NCBI GenBank assembly: GCA_004282745.1
Contig: SHMT01000014.1
Location: 62,001-126,000 of the forward strand
Length of the DNA stretch: 64,000 bases
Direction: 5' to 3'
From: Candidatus Scalindua sp. SCAELEC01
GTDB taxonomy: Bacteria; Planctomycetota; Brocadiia; Brocadiales; Scalinduaceae
The translations under genes and the position numbers were made by a program. The notes under the pieces were generated by a model that worked only from the letters and a program-made list of their open reading frames with translations, ran no database searches and was not told where the DNA came from. Positions 81 through 63,864 of the stretch are shown piece after piece. Within the stretch, counting starts at the first letter, position 1. Each line of letters opens with the position of its first letter.

Positions 81-2267
81 ATGACTGTAGGCAAAAAATT
101 TGCGCTAGTATTCTCAATTTTTTTTGTAACCGTATTTGTCGGCGCTTTTATTGTATTTAATACTATCAAGAGTCAGCATGGAGATAAACAGACAGTTAAT
201 CTTGCCGGGAGACAGAGCATGTTGACTCAAAAATATACGAAAGAGTACATTGATGAACTGATTCCCCTCCAGGTTCGCCACAGCACCCTGAAGGCTGCAG
301 AAATCGCAACGCTCCAGATCGTGGAGGACAGGAAACAGTATACGAAGAACATCGTCGTAAAGCTCAAAAAGGACGGTGTCCTGGACGTACACCCTAATAG
401 GAATTATGCCAAGATCGATGGCGGTATCCCCCTCCCGGCAACGTTTGTTCAGGAGGTTTCCTCCAACATAAACGAGAAAGGTGTCTACAGTTATAATCTC
501 TTAAGCAAGTGGAACATAAACAGAGACAAAGGGCTAAAAACAGACTTCGAGAAAGAGGCTTTCGACCATCTCTACTCTAAAAAGGGAAAGTCATTCTCCC
601 GTTTATTGGTACATAACGGTCTCTACACCCTTCGTTACGCAACCGCTGATGTCGCATCAGCAAAGGGGTGTGTAAGTTGTCATAATGCACATGAGGAGAG
701 CCCTAAGAATGACTTCAAACTGGGAGACGTTATGGGAATCCTTATAGTCAACATCCCTATCGGTACGGTAAGTCATGAAACAGAGGAGTTCTTTGCGGAT
801 TCCGGGGACAAGGAATTTGGGGCAGTCTCTTTCCTCAAGACAAAGAAGGTCTTTGATACAACCCTTGCAGCCCTCATGAATGGCGGGGAAGCGCCTCTTG
901 ATCTTGAAATGACGAGTTTTGCCACACTCCCTGCCACAGAAGACGTTAAGATCAAGAGCAAACTGAATGAGGTGAAACAGCTCTGGGAGAAGACACAGGA
1001 AAATTTTAATACCCTTTCAACGGTTGAACCAAATTCCGCAGAGTATATCGTTGCCTATGGTACTGCCTATGACAGTGCCAATGCTACCATGAAGGGGATG
1101 AATGAAGCGGTTGCTCTGTACCAGGCAAATTCAGAGAAGAAATCAACGATGCTCATGTGGATCCAAGGTTGTTCTGTAGCTCTTGTCTGTCTGGTAATAG
1201 GGCTTGGATGGGTGTTCTTTGCACGTCCATTAATCACTTTCCTACGAGAGCTGGCAGACAAATTAGGGGATGGAGCCGAGCAGGTTGCATCAGCATCAGG
1301 TCAAATTTCATCCTCAAGCCAAAGCCTCGCACAAGGGGCATCGGAACAGGCATCCTCTATCGAGGAGACCTCGGCATCCATGGAGGAGATGTCCTCGACG
1401 ACAAAGCAGAATGCAAATAACGCAAAAGAGGCGGCCCAACTCGCATCTCTCTGCAATAGCACGGCAGAGTCAGGGAGCAAGTCTGTGCATGAGATGAACG
1501 ATGCGATGAACGATATTAACGATAGCAGTAAAAAGATCAGTGATATCATAAAGGTGATAGATGGCATAGCATTCCAGACAAACCTCCTCGCCTTGAATGC
1601 AGCAGTAGAGGCAGCCCGGGCAGGGGAACATGGGAAAGGGTTTGCGGTAGTGGCTGAAGAGGTGAGAAATCTTGCTCAGAGGAGCGCCGCTGCGGCTAAA
1701 GATACAACGGAATTGATTGAGGATTGTGTTGGGAAGGCAAATGCGGGTACAGAGCTATCGGTAAGGTGTAAGGAGGTGTTGGCTGGTATTGTAACAAACG
1801 TGAAGAAGGTAAACACCCTCATAGAAGAGATCGCTACGGCATCGGATGAGCAGGCAGACGGAATAGACCAGGTGAGTCAGGCCGTTCAACAGATGGACCA
1901 GGTAACACAGCAGAATGCGGCCAATGCCGAAGAGACTGCGGCAGCAAGTGAAGAGATGTCGGCACAATCGCAGACACTCCTTGATCAGGTCAAGATATTA
2001 TCAGAACAAATTGGAGGTGCAGGAAAAAGGGCATTGAGCGCTGGACATCAAAAACCAGCGCCAACACTCAGTGACACAAGAAAAAATATGAGACAAACCT
2101 TTGGGACTGGTTCCGGACAATTTTCAGGAAATAAGACTCAGCCAATCCAAACACATAGACATGGTAGTGGTATTGACGAATCTCTACCTATGGGAGAAAC
2201 AGAGTCCATGATACCAATGGACACAGATACTATTCAGGAATATGATACGCGATTGAATGATTTTTAA
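81..2267 (+). CDS. Methyl-accepting chemotaxis protein with PilJ-type sensor and inserted c-type heme module
   Basis: Inner-membrane chemoreceptor of 728 residues. A TM helix lies at about residues 8-28. It is followed by a PilJ/NarX-like first helix ([17 protein letters not shown]), then a Tll0287/DUF3365-like region with one heme c motif CVSCH at residues 197-201. A second helical stretch (about 250-350) leads into TM2 (about 355-380), and the rest is a full MCP signalling domain with its hairpin tip near 493-540. No C-terminal CheB/CheR pentapeptide is visible. The start follows AAAAGGAG. It should signal to a CheA/CheW array encoded elsewhere. The CheX-like gene downstream on the opposite strand and the PilJ/heme proteins beyond it suggest a shared sensory role. 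Membership of the MCP family is certain; reading the sensor as a heme module inserted into a PilJ bundle is inference from motif order. Confidence 0.93.
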
Positions 2268-2299
2268 TGAATTATAGTAGTTCTCAATCTGAAAAAAAT

Positions 2300-2676
2300 A
2301 AGGAATTGAGTGCCGAAGCGAAACACAGGAACAGACCAGAGCATATGAGTGATGAAGTCACGGTAATGGTGACGGAGCAACGGTCTCTGGATCACCCAGT
2401 AATGGGAATTGGTCAACCAGCCCGCCCGGATGAATCCGTTTAGGCGGGCAATGTGAGGAATCATTGAACAGAGCAAAGTCGTTTAACATTTCGAAATATG
2501 CAGTAATGGAAGCATTCAGAAAAGTAAAAACAAATGGAGGTGCAGCGGGAGTAGATGGGTAGTCAATAGAAAAGTTGGAGAGAAATCTCAAAGATAATCT
2601 CTAGAAGGGTCCAGGAAAGAATGTCATCGGGGACATACTTCCCGCCAGCGGTTAAAGCTGTTGCTATTGTAAAAAA
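2300..2676 (+). pseudogene. Remnant of a group II intron 5' region and reverse transcriptase N-terminus
   Basis: From position 2463 (TTG) the plus strand reads as the start of a group II intron RT (LNRAKSFNISKYAVMEAF, then the AGVDG motif). It is broken by a TAG right after VDG, a second TAG after KDNL and a frame change before RMSSGTYFPPAV. Homology stops after AIVKK. The noncoding sequence before it matches the leader of the other RT fragment near 63.0-63.2 kb. This copy is a decayed, truncated intron relic. A string like the family A repeat end (GGGTCCAGGAAAGAAT) lies at the frame break, which may be coincidence. Confidence 0.75.
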
Positions 2677-2725
2677 AGGCGTAATCAAACATATCTTCAC
2701 ACAAAAGATACCCTGATTACGCCTT
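2676..2725. repeat. Inverted repeat at the truncation point of the RT relic
   Basis: AAGGCGTAATCA at 2676-2687 pairs with TGATTACGCCTT at 2714-2725, and an inner TATCTT/AAGATA extends the stem. It starts exactly where RT homology is lost. It could be the end of another mobile element or a terminator. On the minus strand it lies just after the cheX-like gene, and the A-run before 2676 would read as a T-tract there, so a terminator for that gene is plausible. Confidence 0.5.
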
Positions 2726-2781
2726 CGACTTACAGCCCCGAGAACTGCACGGCAAGGTTGCAAACCCATTTATGTAATGTA

Positions 2782-3426
2782 TTACACAACTGAATGGGTA
2801 GTACTAATCGTTACTTTAAGAGAAGCGATTTTGTCTTTTAGGTCTCTGTTTTCTGCTTGTAATGCATTCATGTCCATTTTCTTATCAGAGTCAATAGTAT
2901 AGCTTTTCGGTACTTCGTTCGGTTGAACACCAACATCAAAGTGACCTTTATCATATGAAAACCTCGTCATTATCCATGAAAACTGGGCCTGAGATTCAAT
3001 AGAGAGTCCAGACTCACCTCCGGGCGGTGATGCAATGGTCAATTTCTTTCCTGCTATTACCCAGGGAGTGAGGAGATGAAGTTCCCCCATAGTACTTTCC
3101 AATCTGTTTTTCGCGCCACCTGCTATCATGTTTACTATTTCACCCATTCCATCTTTGACGTCCTCATCAATTTCTAATGCTTCGATTCCCAGCATAGTAC
3201 CGGCAAGATGGCATGCTGTTGAACCATAGGTAAATATGGCAATTTTACCCATGTATTTTTGTCCAAAAAAATGGAGAGAAGATATCAGATCAGTAAAGAT
3301 ATTTTTTTCGTCCTTGATACATGACTCCTCGCTCTTTACATCTATCATAAACATGGAAGAGAAGACTTCAACCGTAGACTCTTGAATAGCGCTAACGATG
3401 TTGCTCTCTAAGGGCCTAATATTCAA
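2782..3426 (-). CDS. CheX-like chemotaxis phosphatase
   Basis: A 214-residue cytoplasmic protein resembling the CheC/CheX/FliY phosphatases that remove phosphate from CheY. The helix DGMGEIVNMIAGGAKNRL carries the E-x2-N signature of this family, with the usual Gly-rich turn. A short helical tail (about 180-210, rich in E, K and L) is probably coiled coil. The start codon is TTG, supported by AAGGAG about nine bases upstream. It converges with the chemoreceptor gene, from which it is separated by a group II intron relic. It may serve the same signalling array. CheX assignment is good at the family level; the actual CheY partner is not in this part of the window. Confidence 0.75.
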   Translation of the reverse strand: MNIRPLESNIVSAIQESTVEVFSSMFMIDVKSEESCIKDEKNIFTDLISSLHFFGQKYMGKIAIFTYGSTACHLAGTMLGIEALEIDEDVKDGMGEIVNMIAGGAKNRLESTMGELHLLTPWVIAGKKLTIASPPGGESGLSIESQAQFSWIMTRFSYDKGHFDVGVQPNEVPKSYTIDSDKKMDMNALQAENRDLKDKIASLKVTISTTHSVV

Positions 3427-3614
3427 CCACTTACTCCTTAAAAAGAAAGAAAAATACGTAATGAATTTTTTTGCATATTTCCACTCTTACTGATTATCGA
3501 TTTATTACATTACATCATTGAGCTTTATTTTATAACTATTTCACTAAACAAATAATTCTGATTACCTCTTTAACTCTCTGTTTAATTAATTCTAACTTAC
3601 GGATAAATGTATCA

Positions 3615-3934
3615 TATACCCATTGTAAAATGGTTTTAGGAATTTCCGGGCCGGAGTTTACTTGAAATTTTGATTTTTCGATTGAACAAAACCAGAGGCT
3701 TAGTAATACTAAGGGTCCAGGAAAAAATAACTTGTTGCTTTATAGCGCTCAGTTTTAGATCAGATTTGGTTGATCTGATCGAGCAGGACCGCAGGCGTAG
3801 CCTGAGCTACAGCGAGGATACTGCGAGTGAAGAGCGGCCGAAGGTGGCCTGAAAATGAGATGCCAGAACGACAAGTTATTTTTCCCTGGATCCTGAGGGC
3901 TCAGGAAACCTAAAACCAATTTGTGATGGGTATA
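3615..3934. mobile_element. MITE family D copy, interrupted by a family A MITE
   Basis: The left end TATACCCATTGTAAAATGG and the right end (reverse complement TATACCCATCACAAATTGG) form imperfect terminal inverted repeats of about 26 bp, continuing into TTTTAGG on both sides. Part of the interior (about 3615-3708) recurs inverted near 63.6-63.7 kb. A family A element sits inside. The right end abuts the stop codon of the TPR-PilJ gene. TA-ended termini suggest mobilisation by an IS630/Tc1-type transposase, which is inference. Confidence 0.8.
3712..3894. mobile_element. MITE family A copy nested in family D
   Basis: The left end GGGTCCAGGAAAAAATAACT and the right end (reverse complement GGATCCAGGGAAAAATAACT) are near-perfect inverted repeats. 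The interior is shared with copies at 8705-8895 and 38934-39063. It encodes nothing recognisable. Its position inside family D shows the order of insertion: D first, then A. Confidence 0.8.
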
Positions 3935-5530
3935 TTATGTACTCGTATTCTGTTGAGTGACATCAACATATAGTTCTGTTAATCGGTCAGTTTTCTCTAG
4001 AAGTATTTCGCAAAAATTAACCACTACCAATACATTAAATTCTTTACCGCTATCTTCTATACATTTATTCACGGTCTTGAACACTTTTCGCCATTCCATC
4101 TTAGTAATAGATTTTATCAGACCTTTTATTTCTGCGGTGTTTTCAGCAGCATCTTCTAAGGTCAACATTGCGCTATCAAACGTTGATAGGGTTTCTATCA
4201 TTAAATCCATCCGTTGCTCTTTCTCAAGACCCATACTTACAGCGAGATAATCACGGGCCAATCTCATAGAGTACATCCGCTGCAATCCTGCAATATCAAT
4301 GAGCTCAGAGTATGCGTACGTCGTTAAAGATTCTAAGTATTTCGTCATTTGTTGATTCTTTTCCAGAAGATTATCACTCATATTTAAGATAGTTAGAAAG
4401 CCTCTCTGTGTGGGGTCTTGGTAAAGCTCATTTTCCAACTTGTGCCAATCAGTCTGAGCTATCCCAATCGCCTTAGCAACCTCTCTATTTTCAGAAATTT
4501 GGGCAAATGCAAGCAGTGCCCTATAAATTCCATTTGTTATTTTTATCGTTCTGCCGAGCTCTTTTTTTGCTCTCTCTCTTTTACCTATCGGATAATCATT
4601 TACAACTTGAACCCCATACAACTTTGCCATCTTCATGGCCAACATTTTCGTTTTGCCGCTGTGTCGTAATGCATCATGTATGTTGGTAATAATTACTGTT
4701 TGTTTTTCCCCTGGCTGTATTTTTTCACTATCTTCTTGGAATGTTTCGGCAAAGGCAGACACTTTACCCGGAAGTATCTGCTCCCTCGGAACACTCACTA
4801 TCTGCTTTTCTCTTGTATGTTGCTGATCTTGAGAGATAGGGACTTGAAAAATGGATTCCAAATTTTTTCTATGAATTTCAGCGTGCCGATATGCATCCCC
4901 ATAATTACCCATAAAACAATACAGGGACTCAAGTACCCTATGTGCAACGGAGAAGTCAGGTTTAAGTTCAATCGCTTTTTTTAAGAGATCCTCTGCACTC
5001 TCAAAGTCTCCTTTCTCTTTCGCTACAAGCCCTTTAAGATAGTAGATGTTTGAAGTGTCATCAATTTTGCGTATTGCCCCTTGCCACAATAGCATTGTAT
5101 TATCCGGCTTTCCCGCTTTCTTGTAGGCAATGCCTAGATAGTAATATATTTCCATTCTATTTCGGTTAATGCCAAATGCCTTTTCAAACACGGTAATGGC
5201 TTCATCATACTGACCTATCTTGTTAAATATTCTTCCCTGTCTAATAAGAGAATCAACAGATGAAGGTTTTAGTCTTGACGTCTCATTAAACGCTTTCAAC
5301 GCTTCATCCAACATACCTTTCTCTTCATATAAGGTTCCCAAACTGTAGTACGCTTCATAATGTTCGGGGTTAGACGTGATAAATTCTTCAATTTTACCTA
5401 TTGCGTCATCTGTCTTGTTCCTCATCAGGCTCGTTGCAGCACTCGCTTCTTTACCACACCCGATTAAAGACACGATGAGACACAAAAATAGTAAGGAGAG
5501 AAATCGTACAATTTTATTACCCTGTAACAT
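3935..5530 (-). CDS. TPR lipoprotein with C-terminal tandem PilJ-type domains
   Basis: Exported protein of about 531 residues. The chosen ATG is preceded by GGAGGA about five bases upstream. An ATG 15 bases earlier would place that Shine-Dalgarno inside the gene. A signal peptide ends in a lipobox (SLIGC), so it is probably a lipoprotein. Four to five TPR units follow (motifs such as YYSLGTLYEEKG and YYYLGIAYKKAG), and then two PilJ-type helical modules: one with MKMAKLYGVQVVNDYP and one with IAGLQRMYSMRLARDYLA. The C-terminal half is clearly paralogous to the next two PilJ proteins on this strand. There is no transmembrane or output domain, so a ligand-binding or scaffold role for a receptor is likely but unproven. 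Its TAA stop touches the family D MITE. Confidence 0.82.
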   Translation of the reverse strand: MLQGNKIVRFLSLLFLCLIVSLIGCGKEASAATSLMRNKTDDAIGKIEEFITSNPEHYEAYYSLGTLYEEKGMLDEALKAFNETSRLKPSSVDSLIRQGRIFNKIGQYDEAITVFEKAFGINRNRMEIYYYLGIAYKKAGKPDNTMLLWQGAIRKIDDTSNIYYLKGLVAKEKGDFESAEDLLKKAIELKPDFSVAHRVLESLYCFMGNYGDAYRHAEIHRKNLESIFQVPISQDQQHTREKQIVSVPREQILPGKVSAFAETFQEDSEKIQPGEKQTVIITNIHDALRHSGKTKMLAMKMAKLYGVQVVNDYPIGKRERAKKELGRTIKITNGIYRALLAFAQISENREVAKAIGIAQTDWHKLENELYQDPTQRGFLTILNMSDNLLEKNQQMTKYLESLTTYAYSELIDIAGLQRMYSMRLARDYLAVSMGLEKEQRMDLMIETLSTFDSAMLTLEDAAENTAEIKGLIKSITKMEWRKVFKTVNKCIEDSGKEFNVLVVVNFCEILLEKTDRLTELYVDVTQQNTST

Positions 5531-5610
5531 TAAGAAATCCTCCATTTATTAGCATATTTCAGGTTATGGCAGTAAACGATCAGAAGAAAAAAAAAAACAA
5601 CATCACATCC

Positions 5611-6636
5611 CTAACCAATGTCAGTATACATCCTTGTTAATCGATCTGTCTTATCCCGTAACGTTTCACAAAAATTGATCATCACAAATATATTAAACTT
5701 TTTACCATTACCCTCAAGACATTCATTCACCGTATCGTAGACTTTTTTCCATTCCATTTTAGTAATAGATTTTATCACTCCTCCTATTTCCAATGTATTT
5801 TTGGGAGCATTTTCCAAAGCTAACATGGCGCTATCAAAGACATTTACGGTTTCCAGCATCAGCCCCATACGATGTTCTTTATCAATATCCATACTTGCAG
5901 CAAGATAATCACGCGCCAGTTTCATAGCGTACAAACTTTGCCTTCCTGCAATATTTATACATTTAGACTGACTGTCAGGATATTGAGCCTCAAGAAGTTT
6001 CGTCATAGTATCATTGCTGACTAAGAGTTTGTCGCTTATCTCAAGGACTAGCAGAAAGCCTTCCCTTGTTGGTTCTTTGGAAAGTGCTTTTTCAAGTAAA
6101 AGCCAATAAGCTTGAGATGACTTAACCTTTTGATATAATTCTGGTTGATTCGCGACAGGTGCATATAAAAGCAGTGAATTATAAATACTATTGGAAAGCC
6201 CCATCGCTTCATCCAATTGTTTCTTGACAATCCGCTGTTTCTCAATGGGATAGTCTTTTATGACTTGTACTCCGTATAAATTGGCCATTCGCATTGACAG
6301 CACCCTAGATTTGCAACAATAATTTATTGCTTCCTTGACATTCTTAAAGTTTAAGAAAGGTGAGAGTGCCTGTTGTCTAGACTTCTTCAATCTTTTCCCT
6401 GACTGTTCAAGTTTAACGCGAGAATGTGTCCCAGGCATAATAACTGATTCCCGTTTTGCAACCTTATTTACCATTACAAGAGGCTTCGTGCTCTTTGTCG
6501 TGTAAGAAGTACAAGCAGGCAGAAGTAACGCAACACAACAACTACTAATCACTATTTTGTATACGCTCATCAATTTTTTATCTTCTGTATGTAAATTGTT
6601 ACCATTGCACGTTATTTTTTTTTGATTTTTTTTCAT
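5611..6636 (-). CDS. Lipoprotein with tandem PilJ-type domains
   Basis: Predicted exported protein of 341 residues. The export signal with lipobox LLPAC sits after an internal Met at residue 23 (position 6570), so the true start may be 6570, which would give a normal-length signal peptide. Neither ATG has a strong ribosome site. The mature protein carries two PilJ/NarX-like modules: MRMANLYGVQVIKDYPIEK in the first and NIAGRQSLYAMKLARDYLA in the second. It closely parallels the C-terminal half of the neighbouring TPR protein and the third PilJ protein. PilJ-type four-helix bundles in NarX bind nitrate/nitrite through a conserved first-helix box; whether this one binds an anion is not shown by the sequence. 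Confidence 0.8.
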   Translation of the reverse strand: MKKNQKKITCNGNNLHTEDKKLMSVYKIVISSCCVALLLPACTSYTTKSTKPLVMVNKVAKRESVIMPGTHSRVKLEQSGKRLKKSRQQALSPFLNFKNVKEAINYCCKSRVLSMRMANLYGVQVIKDYPIEKQRIVKKQLDEAMGLSNSIYNSLLLYAPVANQPELYQKVKSSQAYWLLLEKALSKEPTREGFLLVLEISDKLLVSNDTMTKLLEAQYPDSQSKCINIAGRQSLYAMKLARDYLAASMDIDKEHRMGLMLETVNVFDSAMLALENAPKNTLEIGGVIKSITKMEWKKVYDTVNECLEGNGKKFNIFVMINFCETLRDKTDRLTRMYTDIG

Positions 6637-6825
6637 AATTTATTTATTCATTTGGAGGAGGGTATTATTCTCTCTCATTGATGTATCCAGCATTCGCTTA
6701 TCTCTAGAGCAGATTCGCTGTTTTCTCAACCACCATACATCGTTCTCCCTTGGAAATTATTTTCAAGTTTAACAAGGTAAACGTAAATAGTATGCCATCT
6801 AGTCTTGGTCAGCAGTGTCATCACT

Positions 6826-7605
6826 TCACTCTGCCTTTGCAAGATTTTCCGGAGGATACGGGAATTTCAGACTTATTGCACCTCGTATTTCTCCCTCCTT
6901 GTACCCCTCCTTGATCTTCTTAGATATGTCTCTTTCGCCCTTTGGTCCACCATGACATTTGAGACATGCAGATGTTATATATAGTGGTAACATATACCTA
7001 TAGGTCTTGGATCCGTCAATATTGGTGACAACCGTTCCCTTCCCCTTCCCTTTTGGGTAACCGTTCTTTTCAAATTCTTTGAGATTTTCTATCTCAAAGG
7101 CATCAGGATGATTCGCAGGATTTCTGAATTGAATACTCGTCTGTTTGAGATTATAGCCTGCTCCCAAAGCCTTATTATATTTGTAACCCGTTCGCCTGCC
7201 AACGATAGCAGGTATAATCTTCTTAAACCCTCTCCCCTTCTTGTTAAGAACCTGCTGACTCTCTTCAATTACGGTCTTTGATGATACAAGTAATGTCCCC
7301 AAAATTTTTTCTGTTTGGTCTGCTGAATTTGCATCATCTTCAGACACCTCTACACCCGTTGCATCTTTAAAGTGCTTCTTCAACTGGGACACGTATAGAT
7401 CACCGGTGAATCCTTTATCTCCTTTTTCCGGATCATTAAACAAATCTTGATGTTCGGCAATTATTGCTCTGCAGGATACCAGTAGCTTAGAAACCAGTTC
7501 GGCACGTTTTTCAAGTTCTTTTTCGTCTTCAGCATAGAGAGGGGCTATCGACATACAAGCAACGAACAACAATACAAATCCATTGTAAACGAATTTTCTC
7601 AGCAT
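6826..7605 (-). CDS. Exported Tll0287-like (DUF3365) mono-heme protein
   Basis: A 259-residue periplasmic protein. It has a signal peptide ending near LYA (about residue 25) and a single heme c motif CLKCH close to the C-terminus, followed by GGPKG and a late beta segment (RGAISLKFP), the layout of Tll0287/DUF3365 domains. GGAGG precedes the ATG. This is the stand-alone form of the module that appears inserted in the chemoreceptor sensor at the start of the window. It lies between PilJ protein genes on the same strand. A redox or gas-sensing role is a reasonable inference for the family; no output domain is present. Confidence 0.85.
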   Translation of the reverse strand: MLRKFVYNGFVLLFVACMSIAPLYAEDEKELEKRAELVSKLLVSCRAIIAEHQDLFNDPEKGDKGFTGDLYVSQLKKHFKDATGVEVSEDDANSADQTEKILGTLLVSSKTVIEESQQVLNKKGRGFKKIIPAIVGRRTGYKYNKALGAGYNLKQTSIQFRNPANHPDAFEIENLKEFEKNGYPKGKGKGTVVTNIDGSKTYRYMLPLYITSACLKCHGGPKGERDISKKIKEGYKEGEIRGAISLKFPYPPENLAKAE

Positions 7606-7744
7606 CAGGTAATCCTCCAGTCAAAACACTATTATTAAAATTTGTCCTTTGTAAGACATACAGGTACAAATTTAGGTTAACGTCTCAATTCTCTGATAGA
7701 TAAAGTTTTATCAATACCCACATTTTCAGCACAGCTTGTTTTGG

Positions 7745-8548
7745 TTATGATACCTCAATATACAGTCCCGTTAAGCGGGTAGTCTTCTCCAATAGTGTGT
7801 CACAAAATTTAACCAATAGGCCCACATTAAATTTTGTACCATTACTCTCTATACACTCGGTAACAGAGCCATAGACTTTTCTCCACTCCATTTTAGTAAT
7901 AGATTTGATAAGCCCCTTTATTTTTGCTGTATTTTCAGTAGAGCCTTCCATGGTCAACATTGCACTCTCAAATTCAACTGCGACATCAAGCATTAAGTCA
8001 ATCCTATACTCCTTATCAATTCCCAGACTTGCTGCAAGATAATCACGCGCCAATTGCTGTGAGTACATTCCTTGCCTCCCTGCAATATTGATAATCTCCG
8101 ACGTTGGAACCGGGGATAGCGATTCCATATATGATGTCATCATTTCATTCGCTTCAAGCAGCCTATCACTTAAATCCAAGACATCCAGAAAGGCTGGCTG
8201 TGTTGGTGGTTTTGATAGCATTTTCTCCATATGATGCCAATTGTCCTGTGCTTCCTTAACCGTTCGTGCCAATTCCGGTTTATGGGTAACAGGACCATAC
8301 GAAAGCAATGCCTTGTAGATGTCGTTCATTACTTTTTTTGCTTCATCTAACTGCTTTTTTGCAAGCCGTTTTTTTTCCGTTGGGTAATCTTTGATAACTT
8401 GAATACCATATAGATTGGCCATACGCATTGATAATGTCCTGGTTTTACCACTATTGTTTATTGCCTGCTCTGTACTCTCTAAAGTCATGGCGTGTACTTG
8501 CGTCGCAACAAAAAACAGAAGTATAAACACAAAAATTGCTCTTTTCAT
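7745..8548 (-). CDS. Secreted protein with tandem PilJ-type domains
   Basis: About 267 residues. The start is set by AAAGGAG five bases before an ATG and by a typical signal peptide (MKRAIFVFILLFFVATQVHA). Longer in-frame starts have no such site. The mature protein has two PilJ-type modules, marked by MRMANLYGIQVIKDYP and NIAGRQGMYSQQLARDYLAA, then a conserved C-terminal helix region (IKSITKMEWRKVY). That last motif is nearly identical in the other two PilJ proteins, so the three are paralogues made by local duplication. There is no lipobox, unlike its two relatives, so it is probably free in the periplasm. Function unknown; a binding protein for a receptor is the best guess. Confidence 0.82.
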   Translation of the reverse strand: MKRAIFVFILLFFVATQVHAMTLESTEQAINNSGKTRTLSMRMANLYGIQVIKDYPTEKKRLAKKQLDEAKKVMNDIYKALLSYGPVTHKPELARTVKEAQDNWHHMEKMLSKPPTQPAFLDVLDLSDRLLEANEMMTSYMESLSPVPTSEIINIAGRQGMYSQQLARDYLAASLGIDKEYRIDLMLDVAVEFESAMLTMEGSTENTAKIKGLIKSITKMEWRKVYGSVTECIESNGTKFNVGLLVKFCDTLLEKTTRLTGLYIEVS

Positions 8549-8704: not shown

Positions 8705-8895
8705 AGGGCTCAAGAAAAAATAACTTGCCGTTTTTGCCTGTCCCTGCCAGAAAGAGTGTCACCCGCCCGGCCTCTCTTCACTCTCAGTATCCTCGCTATA
8801 GCTCAGGCTACGCCTGCGGTACTGCTCGATCAGATCGACCAAATCTGATCTAAAACTGAGCGCTATAAAACAACAAGACATTTTTTCCTGCACCC
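8705..8895. mobile_element. MITE family A copy
   Basis: Inverted-repeat ends (GGGCTCAAGAAAAAATAACT and, reversed, GGGTGCAGGAAAAAATGTCT), flanked by TA on both sides. The interior matches the copy at 3712-3894 in reverse orientation. The TA plus the first element base form the TAG stop of the DnaJ/FGE-like gene. Confidence 0.82.
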
Positions 8896-10445
8896 TAATC
8901 AAAGAAACCACATGAACGCACTAGACGAAAACCCAGACGGTGAAACTGACTGTCACTGTCGTAATCTGATACGCTATGTGAAGCACAACGCAAGAAATTT
9001 GCAGGATCTTCAAAACCACCTCCCCGTACAACCCGATAAGTTTTGTCTCCACCTGTCCACACCCCCCCATCTGACGGGGCGTTGTCATAATTCGGATGCC
9101 AAAAATCTAGGCACAACTCCCAGACGTTTCCATGCATATCATACAATCCCCATTTATTTGACTTAAGCTGTCCCACTGGATGAACTTTACCACCCGAATT
9201 TCGGCTATACCAGGCATATTCACCCAATCTACGCGACTCATCACCAAAACTGTATATTCCACTTGTCCCGGCCCTTACCGCATATTCCCATTCTGCTTCA
9301 CTTGGAAGACGGTAAATGTCCCTCTCTGCTTTTTTATTGAGCCTTTTGAGATACTCATTGCTGAATGTCATAACAGGGTAATTGCCTGTATCATTTCCAG
9401 ATTGATTACCGTCGGTTATCGAAGGATCACTTCCCATAATACGTTCCCATTGGGACTGTGTAACCTCATACTTTCCCATCCAAAATCCGTTCACATTAAC
9501 TTCATGTGCTGACTTCTCAGAATCTTGACACTCTTCATTGGGAGAAGAACATCCCATGATATAACTTCTTCCCGGTATCCAGACAAAGTCCATACCACTA
9601 ATAGGATCATGTTTGATAGTTCCACTTGGCAGGAATGATACTACCATCTCTTCACCCAGCCCTATCATTGCTATCTTACTTATCCTCACCTTGTCTTCAA
9701 CAATATCCAGATACATGTATACGGGCTTTTGCTTCCCCTCTCCCAAGAGCGCTTTTGCTTTATTACTCGTTATTGTAACAAAACCTTCTCTGTCTAATTT
9801 CTTTGGCCACACATTCCAGTTGAGAGATAACGGTAATTTAGCGCTTTTGCTATCATAGCCTCCATTGTTTAAAGTTGCTTGAGCTGCTTGATAATCAGGA
9901 TTATGTTGTTGAACTGCATGATTAAAGACATCTACTGCTTCCCTTTGGCGCTTTCGGAATTCCATCTCTGAATCAAAGGCATCACGAGTAATATTGAGAA
10001 CTGGTTGAATCCCAGGAAAATTATTTGTTGATCGGACCAGGGGATTTAGCGCTGTTTGTATAACTGTGGGTGTGGAATTTTCATGCCTTTTTTGTGAAGT
10101 ACCATATTGTGTATAGAGTACTCCAGCGATAATCATTGTTAGAACAATTCCCCCTACTAAATATATTTTTTGAAATCCTTTCGATTCTCCTACTTTGGAT
10201 TCATTGTGTTCTGCATGTGAGAGCTGTAATGCCAGCTCTTCATCAAATATGGTTCGGCTTTCTAGAACGGAAAGCACTTGATATGCTTCATTCTTTAATT
10301 TGAACATCTCTTCCGCCTGTTTTCTTTGGGAAGAGGATGAGAACTTGTCAGGATGATACGCGTGAGAAAGAAACCGGAAACGCTCTTTTATCTCTTGTTG
10401 GGTTGCTTGACGAGATACACCTAATATTTCATAATAATCCTTCAT
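8895..10445 (-). CDS. J-domain protein fused to a formylglycine-generating-enzyme-like domain
   Basis: Membrane-anchored fusion of 516 residues. A J domain (about 1-65, with the HPD motif in YHPDKF) is followed by one TM helix (about 96-118), a linker region, and an FGE-sulfatase/SUMF1-like domain (about 285-510: FVWIPG, MGKYEVTQSQWERIMG, RLPSEAEWEYAVRAGT, VVRGGGFED, LGFRLVRS). J domains stimulate an Hsp70. FGE-like domains include formylglycine enzymes but also many non-catalytic or sugar-binding relatives, so no reaction is assigned. An SD-like AGGATC precedes the start. The TAG stop is shared with the MITE junction; excision of the element would leave the same stop. Confidence 0.85.
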   Translation of the reverse strand: MKDYYEILGVSRQATQQEIKERFRFLSHAYHPDKFSSSSQRKQAEEMFKLKNEAYQVLSVLESRTIFDEELALQLSHAEHNESKVGESKGFQKIYLVGGIVLTMIIAGVLYTQYGTSQKRHENSTPTVIQTALNPLVRSTNNFPGIQPVLNITRDAFDSEMEFRKRQREAVDVFNHAVQQHNPDYQAAQATLNNGGYDSKSAKLPLSLNWNVWPKKLDREGFVTITSNKAKALLGEGKQKPVYMYLDIVEDKVRISKIAMIGLGEEMVVSFLPSGTIKHDPISGMDFVWIPGRSYIMGCSSPNEECQDSEKSAHEVNVNGFWMGKYEVTQSQWERIMGSDPSITDGNQSGNDTGNYPVMTFSNEYLKRLNKKAERDIYRLPSEAEWEYAVRAGTSGIYSFGDESRRLGEYAWYSRNSGGKVHPVGQLKSNKWGLYDMHGNVWELCLDFWHPNYDNAPSDGGVWTGGDKTYRVVRGGGFEDPANFLRCASHSVSDYDSDSQFHRLGFRLVRSCGFFD

Positions 10446-63250: not shown

Positions 63251-63429
63251 GCCACCTCCATGCCGGCCGCCGCCTGGACAGTAAACAGGTTTCCTCCAGA
63301 CTTATCCCAGATTAAGGACACCCCCCTGGTTTTGACGACATCCATAAGTTTTCGACAATTTCTCAGTGGTTCACTTGTGTTCATCTCCATAACACTCACC
63401 TGACAGAATCTTTGTCCTGCCTTTTCCAT
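63247..63429 (-). CDS. Small hypothetical protein before the intron fragment
   Basis: A 60-residue ORF beginning MEKAGQRFCQVSV, with GAGGAG seven bases before the ATG. It ends at the edge of the intron fragment, so its 3' end may have been replaced by the insertion. Family not recognised. Confidence 0.4.
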   Translation of the reverse strand: MEKAGQRFCQVSVMEMNTSEPLRNCRKLMDVVKTRGVSLIWDKSGGNLFTVQAAAGMEVA

Positions 63430-63599
63430 TAACGCTCCTCACATTAGCTCTTTACCAATGCAACTTAATGGTGGTTTGAAACCCCTCCCTGCAGAGTGGT
63501 TTCGAGGGGCCACACCCTCATCCTCTATACAGCATTGCTTGAAATTGTATTGCAGCAATTACTCGAACATAATTGCTCCTCCTTTCGCGCATTCTTGGC

Positions 63600-63711
63600 G
63601 CCCAATCCTCGACTTGGCATCACTAAGCCTCTGGTTTTGTTCAATCAAAAAATAAAAATTTCAAGTAAACTCCGGCCCAGAAATTCCTAATACCATTTTG
63701 CAATGGGTATA
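63600..63711. mobile_element. MITE family D copy, one end visible
   Basis: The right end (reverse complement TATACCCATTGCAAAATGG) and about 90 bases of interior match 3615-3708 in inverted orientation. The other end was not found. Confidence 0.65.
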
Positions 63712-63864
63712 TAGAGCGCCATCGTATTCTATTCTTAATGGCCTGGCCATATGGTGTATGGAACAAAAACCTCAGATCTGTCAAGAATAAAGACCTGACG
63801 CTTATGTGGCTTATATGGATTAGCCAGACCGAACAGGTTTCTGTGTGAATCATCCGTCCGAAGT

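Follow-up and report, generated by a model that had tools for sequence, protein, structure and literature searches.

The chemoreceptor McpN of Pseudomonas aeruginosa (PDB 6GCV) consists of a periplasmic helical bundle of the PilJ type followed by the signalling domain of methyl-accepting chemotaxis proteins (MCPs). Its nitrate motif, the N-box ([IVL][ND]xAGxQRML[ST]Q), contains an essential arginine, R61, which contacts nitrate and for which the R61A replacement was tested, and the PilJ receptor, with no N-box in its domains, did not bind nitrate (PMC6381276). The nitrate/nitrite kinases NarX and NarQ are, by description, similar in having a helical-bundle periplasmic sensor with a related nitrate segment (PMC6381276). 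A second described sensor type is the Tll0287 or DUF3365 domain, renamed sCache_heme in a 2026 preprint (PMC12889525) that cites the structures of Geobacter GSU0582 and GSU0935. In that work a signalling-associated sCache_heme protein without an axial cysteine bound nitric oxide (NO) tightly and released it slowly, at 6e-4 per second, a stand-alone protein with Cys/His ligation behaved as a redox protein, and there is no mention of PilJ, planctomycetes or operon context. Here we describe a locus with both module types in a 64,000-nucleotide stretch of DNA (the window; contig C31, bases 62001-126000, from a draft genome of 4.59 Mb), comprising a chemoreceptor in which a heme Cache domain is nested in a PilJ bundle and four nearby genes for exported PilJ and heme proteins. 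We tentatively read the receptor as a composite nitrogen-oxide chemoreceptor and the exported four as a separate, duplicated periplasmic heme/PilJ assembly, and hold this reading with slightly less than even confidence. The component parts are known, and the nested receptor and the free operon appear new, as no description of them was found in the literature searched. The genome encodes the alpha subunit of hydrazine synthase (PF18582, 1.4e-20) and is therefore that of an anammox bacterium, related to Scalindua; flagellin and a complete che operon are also present. Nitrite, NO and nitrate are the central metabolites of anammox.

The receptor (81-2267, plus strand) is an MCP of 728 residues with a first transmembrane helix (TM1), a PilJ bundle with a nested Tll0287/sCache_heme domain, a second transmembrane helix (TM2) and an MCP signalling domain (1437-1907, plus strand; residues 453-609; Pfam MCPsignal, 1.4e-53). 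Its assignment as an MCP follows from the MCPsignal domain and the hydrophobic helices that flank the sensor. The first-pass annotation of the window had recognized the two sensor modules in this gene, and Pfam supports both and places one within the other: two PilJ stretches (29.6 bits against a cut-off of 26.6) flank a Tll0287-like match (3.2e-15, residues 66-226). The module order, PilJ helix 1, Tll0287 and then the remaining PilJ, is supported by the Pfam order and by an alignment of eight homologues, and is nested rather than side by side. The insert covers approximately residues 60-235 (258-785, plus strand), with limits taken from a natural insert-free homologue of 569 residues in G008 (L016:5385-7094). 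In this homologue the flanks match those of the nested relatives (KEYINE / AFFNRSEEGKFG) and VNLAGRQRMLTQKYFKEYINE runs straight into the next PilJ block, at the point where the nested relatives have a heme domain of ~175 residues. Because exactly that segment is missing from the G008 homologue, the heme domain is an insert within the PilJ bundle, and as nested receptors are present in several families, this G008 protein more probably arose by loss of the insert than was insert-free from the start. The inserted domain carries a CxxCH heme-attachment motif (CVSCH, residues 197-201; 669-683, plus strand), whose cysteines are the only ones in the periplasmic part of the protein, and judged from sequence it probably sits at the membrane-distal turn of the bundle. 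The receptor thus resembles McpN in its periplasmic bundle, in the place of the N-box and in the MCP domain that follows, but McpN has no heme domain; NarX and NarQ also lack heme and, unlike the receptor, have a histidine kinase output. With GSU0582 and GSU0935 it shares an extracytoplasmic single Cache domain, a CxxCH c-type heme, a signalling output and the lack of an axial cysteine, and it differs from the sensors of that study in that the domain sits inside a PilJ bundle.

A profile of the sensor (A6) has matches in 13 of the 62 genomes of the order, and 12 of these genomes carry the nested form; the thirteenth match, in G019, is without the heme part. Outside the order, one clear nested receptor was found in a 392-genome sample of the phylum, in a planctomycete of another family (G334). 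The receptor gene lies within a che operon in G010, in G001 and in the present genome, where the copy at C58 belongs to an operon of cheX, a regulator, the MCP gene, cheA, cheD, cheY, cheR, a GGDEF gene and cheB. Other relatives have different surroundings. A longer second type of nested receptor, of 860-875 residues (L033 5580-8174, L034 7873-10500, L035 3868-6462 and L036 4446-7028), has an altered N-box (AAR or AAN) and one extra cysteine, and adjoins the same genes of 250, 505 and 333 residues instead of che genes. A third relative, located in C19, has GAF/kinase proteins as its output, and at L004 5256-11180, also in the present genome, a PilJ-sCache_heme protein with a GAF domain has as neighbours a CheR-like protein and a hybrid kinase of 1333 residues, which gives the same sensor another output. 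Finally, a C-terminal tail of the form ..xxDF-COOH is conserved after a flexible linker in anammox chemoreceptors (window 2253-2267; L003, L010, L016, L020 and L029), with the variants RLNDF, NFRDF, RFKDF, RFNDF, RLKDF, QHNDF and SMSDF, and is a possible tether for CheR, CheB or CheD.

The exported set forms a transcription-unit-like cluster on the minus strand (3935-8548), with gaps of 139, 189 and 80 bases between its genes. The first gene (7745-8548) encodes a tandem-PilJ protein of 267 residues (Pfam PilJ, 1.4e-11, 44.9 bits), hereafter PilJ2, and the second (6826-7605) a stand-alone c-type heme protein of 259 residues with a single Tll0287/sCache_heme domain (Pfam Tll0287-like, 3.5e-25) and a CLKCH heme motif at 6952-6966. 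The third (5611-6636, read from an internal methionine start) and the fourth (3935-5530) encode likely lipoproteins with tandem PilJ parts at 5611-6351 and 3935-4693, respectively, the last one with TPR repeats across its N-terminal half (Pfam, 3.4e-22). Signal peptides and lipoboxes (VHA, LYA, LLPAC for the third protein and LIGC for the fourth) were judged by eye from sequence. The PilJ scores of 3935-5530 (4.6e-05, 23.9 bits) and 5611-6636 (5.6e-04, 20.4 bits) are under the Pfam cut-off, and we accept both as PilJ proteins because each is 52-54% identical to 7745-8548 over ~245 aligned residues; each free PilJ protein has two PilJ units. Three free PilJ proteins and one free heme protein had been proposed from the letters of the window, as modules the same as those of the receptor. 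The proteins are as described, and the sameness holds at the level of families; close kinship does not, the profile-profile alignments between free and receptor versions covering 27 columns for PilJ (E 3e-05) and 52 columns for the heme domain (E 0.002). A promoter-like 11/12 match at 7202-7174 was set aside, as it falls within the heme gene and sites of this kind occur at chance level.

A second free operon, at C101 (L002 7644-8465, 8611-9390 and 9508-11790), has the identical gene order, with proteins 69% (PilJ2), 78% (heme) and 46% (TPR-PilJ2) identical to those of the window and without a counterpart of the lipoprotein gene at 5611-6636. As the set is present twice in the same gene order, it is not a chance cluster. 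The C101 TPR-PilJ2 protein (L002 9508-11790) has an extra C-terminal part, resembling DUF1566/Lcl_C by eye, which the window copy lacks. PilJ2 relatives are scarce: there was no match to the family at 1e-10 in 97 other genomes, a profile scan of genome contigs with very narrow patterns gave none, and the top PDB match of the PilJ2 profile was McpN, with an E of 0.025 over 29 residues only. The nearest PilJ2-like proteins seen outside the phylum are free exported tandem-PilJ proteins of ~264 residues on the Cupriavidus plasmids pBB1 and pMTS1 (27% identical, E 2e-7), whose genes lie directly 3' of a short PilJ-MCP-like gene (L083 7100-8696, L084 7926-8720); they differ from the window protein in that neither N-box is incomplete, that no heme protein was seen alongside and that the host is a betaproteobacterium. 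The free heme protein lacks a cysteine at the expected position of the canonical ligand. Tll0287 of Thermosynechococcus (PDB 5B82; E 1.2e-07 to the family profile) is, like it, an exported single-domain c-type heme protein; the window protein is longer, with a helical insert of ~60 residues and a cysteine in the first helix, Cys45, that is invariant in the family alignment. A Foldseek search with the model of the free heme protein, built without heme (predicted local distance difference test score, pLDDT, 78.6), gave nothing under E 0.001 and no significant fold match in the PDB.

Genes resembling parts of this set occur beside signalling genes in other genomes. The long free form of the heme protein (259 residues) is present in 13 copies in 9 of the 62 genomes of the order. 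In G010, G008 and G039 its gene is part of a che operon, flanked by an MCP gene and cheD, and in G060, at the end of a contig, it comes after an MCP gene; the window genome is of family f1, G039 and G060 are of family f5. In G001, G015 and G010:C8 the heme-protein gene lies upstream of, and on the same strand as, histidine kinase genes, and in G008:C48 and G002 it faces a kinase/regulator pair in convergent orientation. A NIT-domain reading of the kinase that follows the G015 copy was discarded, since Pfam gives HK_sensor_dom_bact instead. In the che operon of G004, cheW and a dCache receptor gene are separated by a gene for an exported, free-standing tandem-PilJ protein. The places of the heme-protein relatives in che operons and beside kinases tie this family to signalling, and by analogy they may tie the window operon to chemotaxis. 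A tree of the heme proteins groups the che-operon copies in one clade (100/99) and sets the window and C101 copies apart as a pair (90/99). The exact set was found only in the present genome, so that a conserved receptor-linked operon was rejected, though parts lie in che operons. The first-pass annotation had proposed that the set feeds chemotaxis and that its neighbourhood should recur in related genomes; what stands of this are the related parts in che operons (G010, G008, G039 and G004) or beside an MCP gene (G060), and what does not fit is the receptorless operon at C101, together with a heme protein outside the che clade and an exact set confined to one genome.

The exported set could instead be a stand-alone redox or NO/nitrite-handling system outside chemotaxis, placed beside a duplicated receptor by accident. 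We regard this as a genuine possibility, short of preferring it: a second copy of the set has no receptor beside it, the window heme protein branches apart from the che-operon ones, and receptor and set are on opposite strands, the receptor being a recent duplicate. It fits poorly with the repeated occurrence of heme-protein relatives at the che operons, MCP gene and kinases listed above, and with PilJ domains being otherwise sensor domains. Conversely, PilJ and the c-heme Cache may be exchangeable parts of one anammox periplasmic sensing apparatus, nested in a receptor or encoded free from the same che operon, with the free set as a co-receptor complex that presents the NO/nitrite state to chemoreceptors and kinases. 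We judge that picture unlikely; cooperation of the exported set with the window receptor is an inference.

The receptor itself has two candidate ligand sites. At the N-box position (195-230, plus strand), alignment with the McpN motif shows a match except for the nitrate-binding arginine, which is a serine in both the window and C58 copies and sets them apart from nitrate-binding PilJ domains of the McpN type. From this substitution, the PilJ site of the window copy has probably lost nitrate binding. The N-box is complete in the nested receptors of G001, G016, G010, G006, G014, G008, G021 and G334 and in the insert-free receptor of G008, and its arginine is also changed in G012 (Gly) and G042 (Ser). 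The heme motif is retained in every nested copy. In the che-type nested receptors the CxxCH pair provides the sole periplasmic cysteines, and this absence of a further cysteine, with the fusion to a signalling module, places them by sequence with the NO-sensing, signalling type of sCache_heme. As the arginine is lost and the heme kept here, and the heme lost and the N-box kept in G008, the two inputs have been lost separately in nature. The window receptor most likely senses NO or redox state rather than nitrate. The earlier suggestion of nitrogen-oxide sensing gains from the anammox host and from relatives with a full N-box and an NO-type heme, and loses its nitrate part here to the serine. 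A receptor that detects nitrate or nitrite through the PilJ bundle, with the heme domain serving a structural or tuning role, seems rather improbable: the N-box is otherwise intact here and complete in most relatives, and G008 keeps it without the insert, but the very arginine replaced in the McpN experiment is a serine in both near-identical copies, the PilJ receptor, whose domains are without the motif, did not bind nitrate, and the heme motif persists in all nested copies.

For the composite chemoreceptor that we favour, we propose the following mechanism. A PilJ helical bundle of the NarX/McpN type would span from TM1 to TM2, with the c-type-heme Cache inserted after its first helix. The heme would most likely bind NO or report redox state, and a change in the heme domain would be relayed along the bundle to the hairpin of the MCP domain, which would couple through the CheW encoded just upstream. 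With the nitrate site probably lost in the window copy, the bundle would act mainly as a transmitter. The exported four would most likely assemble in the periplasm, at the membrane, as a heme/PilJ complex with the TPR lipoprotein as its anchor, and this complex would bind nitrogen oxides or act as a redox buffer for them; the set may be an independent redox system.

Several observations weigh against this proposal. With a mean pLDDT of 59, the AlphaFold model of the receptor is too weak for use, and the bundle and the tip position of the heme domain rest on sequence; the NO assignment depends on a single preprint, in which two proteins were tested, and on an absent cysteine. The window receptor lies outside the main che operon and is a near-copy of the C58 receptor, with 95.7% DNA identity over 1963 bases (65-2026) and complete identity over ~200 codons, and the pair is the product of a recent duplication or gene conversion. 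The C101 operon has no receptor alongside, the order's 61 other genomes gave PilJ2 no close relative, just weak hits at the PilJ level, and the tree does not support the window heme protein as an orthologue of the che-operon one. The co-occurrence of nested receptor and long free heme protein is a weak signal (Fisher tests uncorrected for relatedness, p = 0.22 among the 17 genomes of the family and p = 0.015 among the 62 of the order, with 13 receptor genomes counted). Finally, anammox exported c-heme proteins may be sent to the anammoxosome instead of the periplasm, a location that would uncouple the free set from the receptor. A redundant duplicate of recent origin, with no function of its own, is a further reading of the window receptor, suggested by its identity to the C58 copy and its position outside a che operon. 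We regard this as very improbable, for the reading frame of the receptor is open throughout, its CxxCH is intact, it has its own CheW upstream, and its differences from the C58 copy cluster in the sensor part and the C-terminal tail.

The genes around the receptor include further chemotaxis components. A CheW-like gene lies 5' of it, beyond the window edge (L001 15459-15947), and the CheX-like phosphatase noted earlier between receptor and free set is confirmed as a CheX-type CheY-P phosphatase (2782-3426, minus strand, TTG start; Pfam CheX, 3e-16; NCBIfam CheX, 1.4e-10, under the cut-off of that model), 34% identical to the CheX of the C58 che operon. The receptor, CheX and the exported proteins, as first delimited, all coincide with open reading frames. 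Directly upstream of the free operon, a DnaJ domain and a formylglycine-generating-enzyme-like domain are fused at 8895-10445 (Pfam), an unusual pairing. A dispersed repeat has its core at 3614-3713, between the free operon and CheX, with a second window copy near 63613-63712, ~40 copies in the genome at 87-98% identity, and one copy just behind the C101 operon; the full element of ~190 bp has terminal inverted repeats (TATACCCAT...ATGGGTATA) and looks like a miniature inverted-repeat transposable element. A group II intron (D1-D4-2; Rfam RF01999, 97.6 bits) lies close to the window end at 63398-63519.

The locus and its relatives present a case of one sensor domain within another, and of che operons that encode members of these domain families as free proteins. 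The receptor family points to NO or redox as inputs, plus nitrate in most relatives, and offers a natural matched set with both sites intact (G010, G001 and G006), the nitrate arginine changed (window, C58, G012 and G042) or the insert absent (G008), which lets the two inputs be separated in a chimeric receptor. For the free PilJ proteins, the Cupriavidus plasmid pair provides a culturable system. If the co-receptor picture were true, these proteins would serve the taxis of anammox bacteria within nitrogen-oxide gradients.

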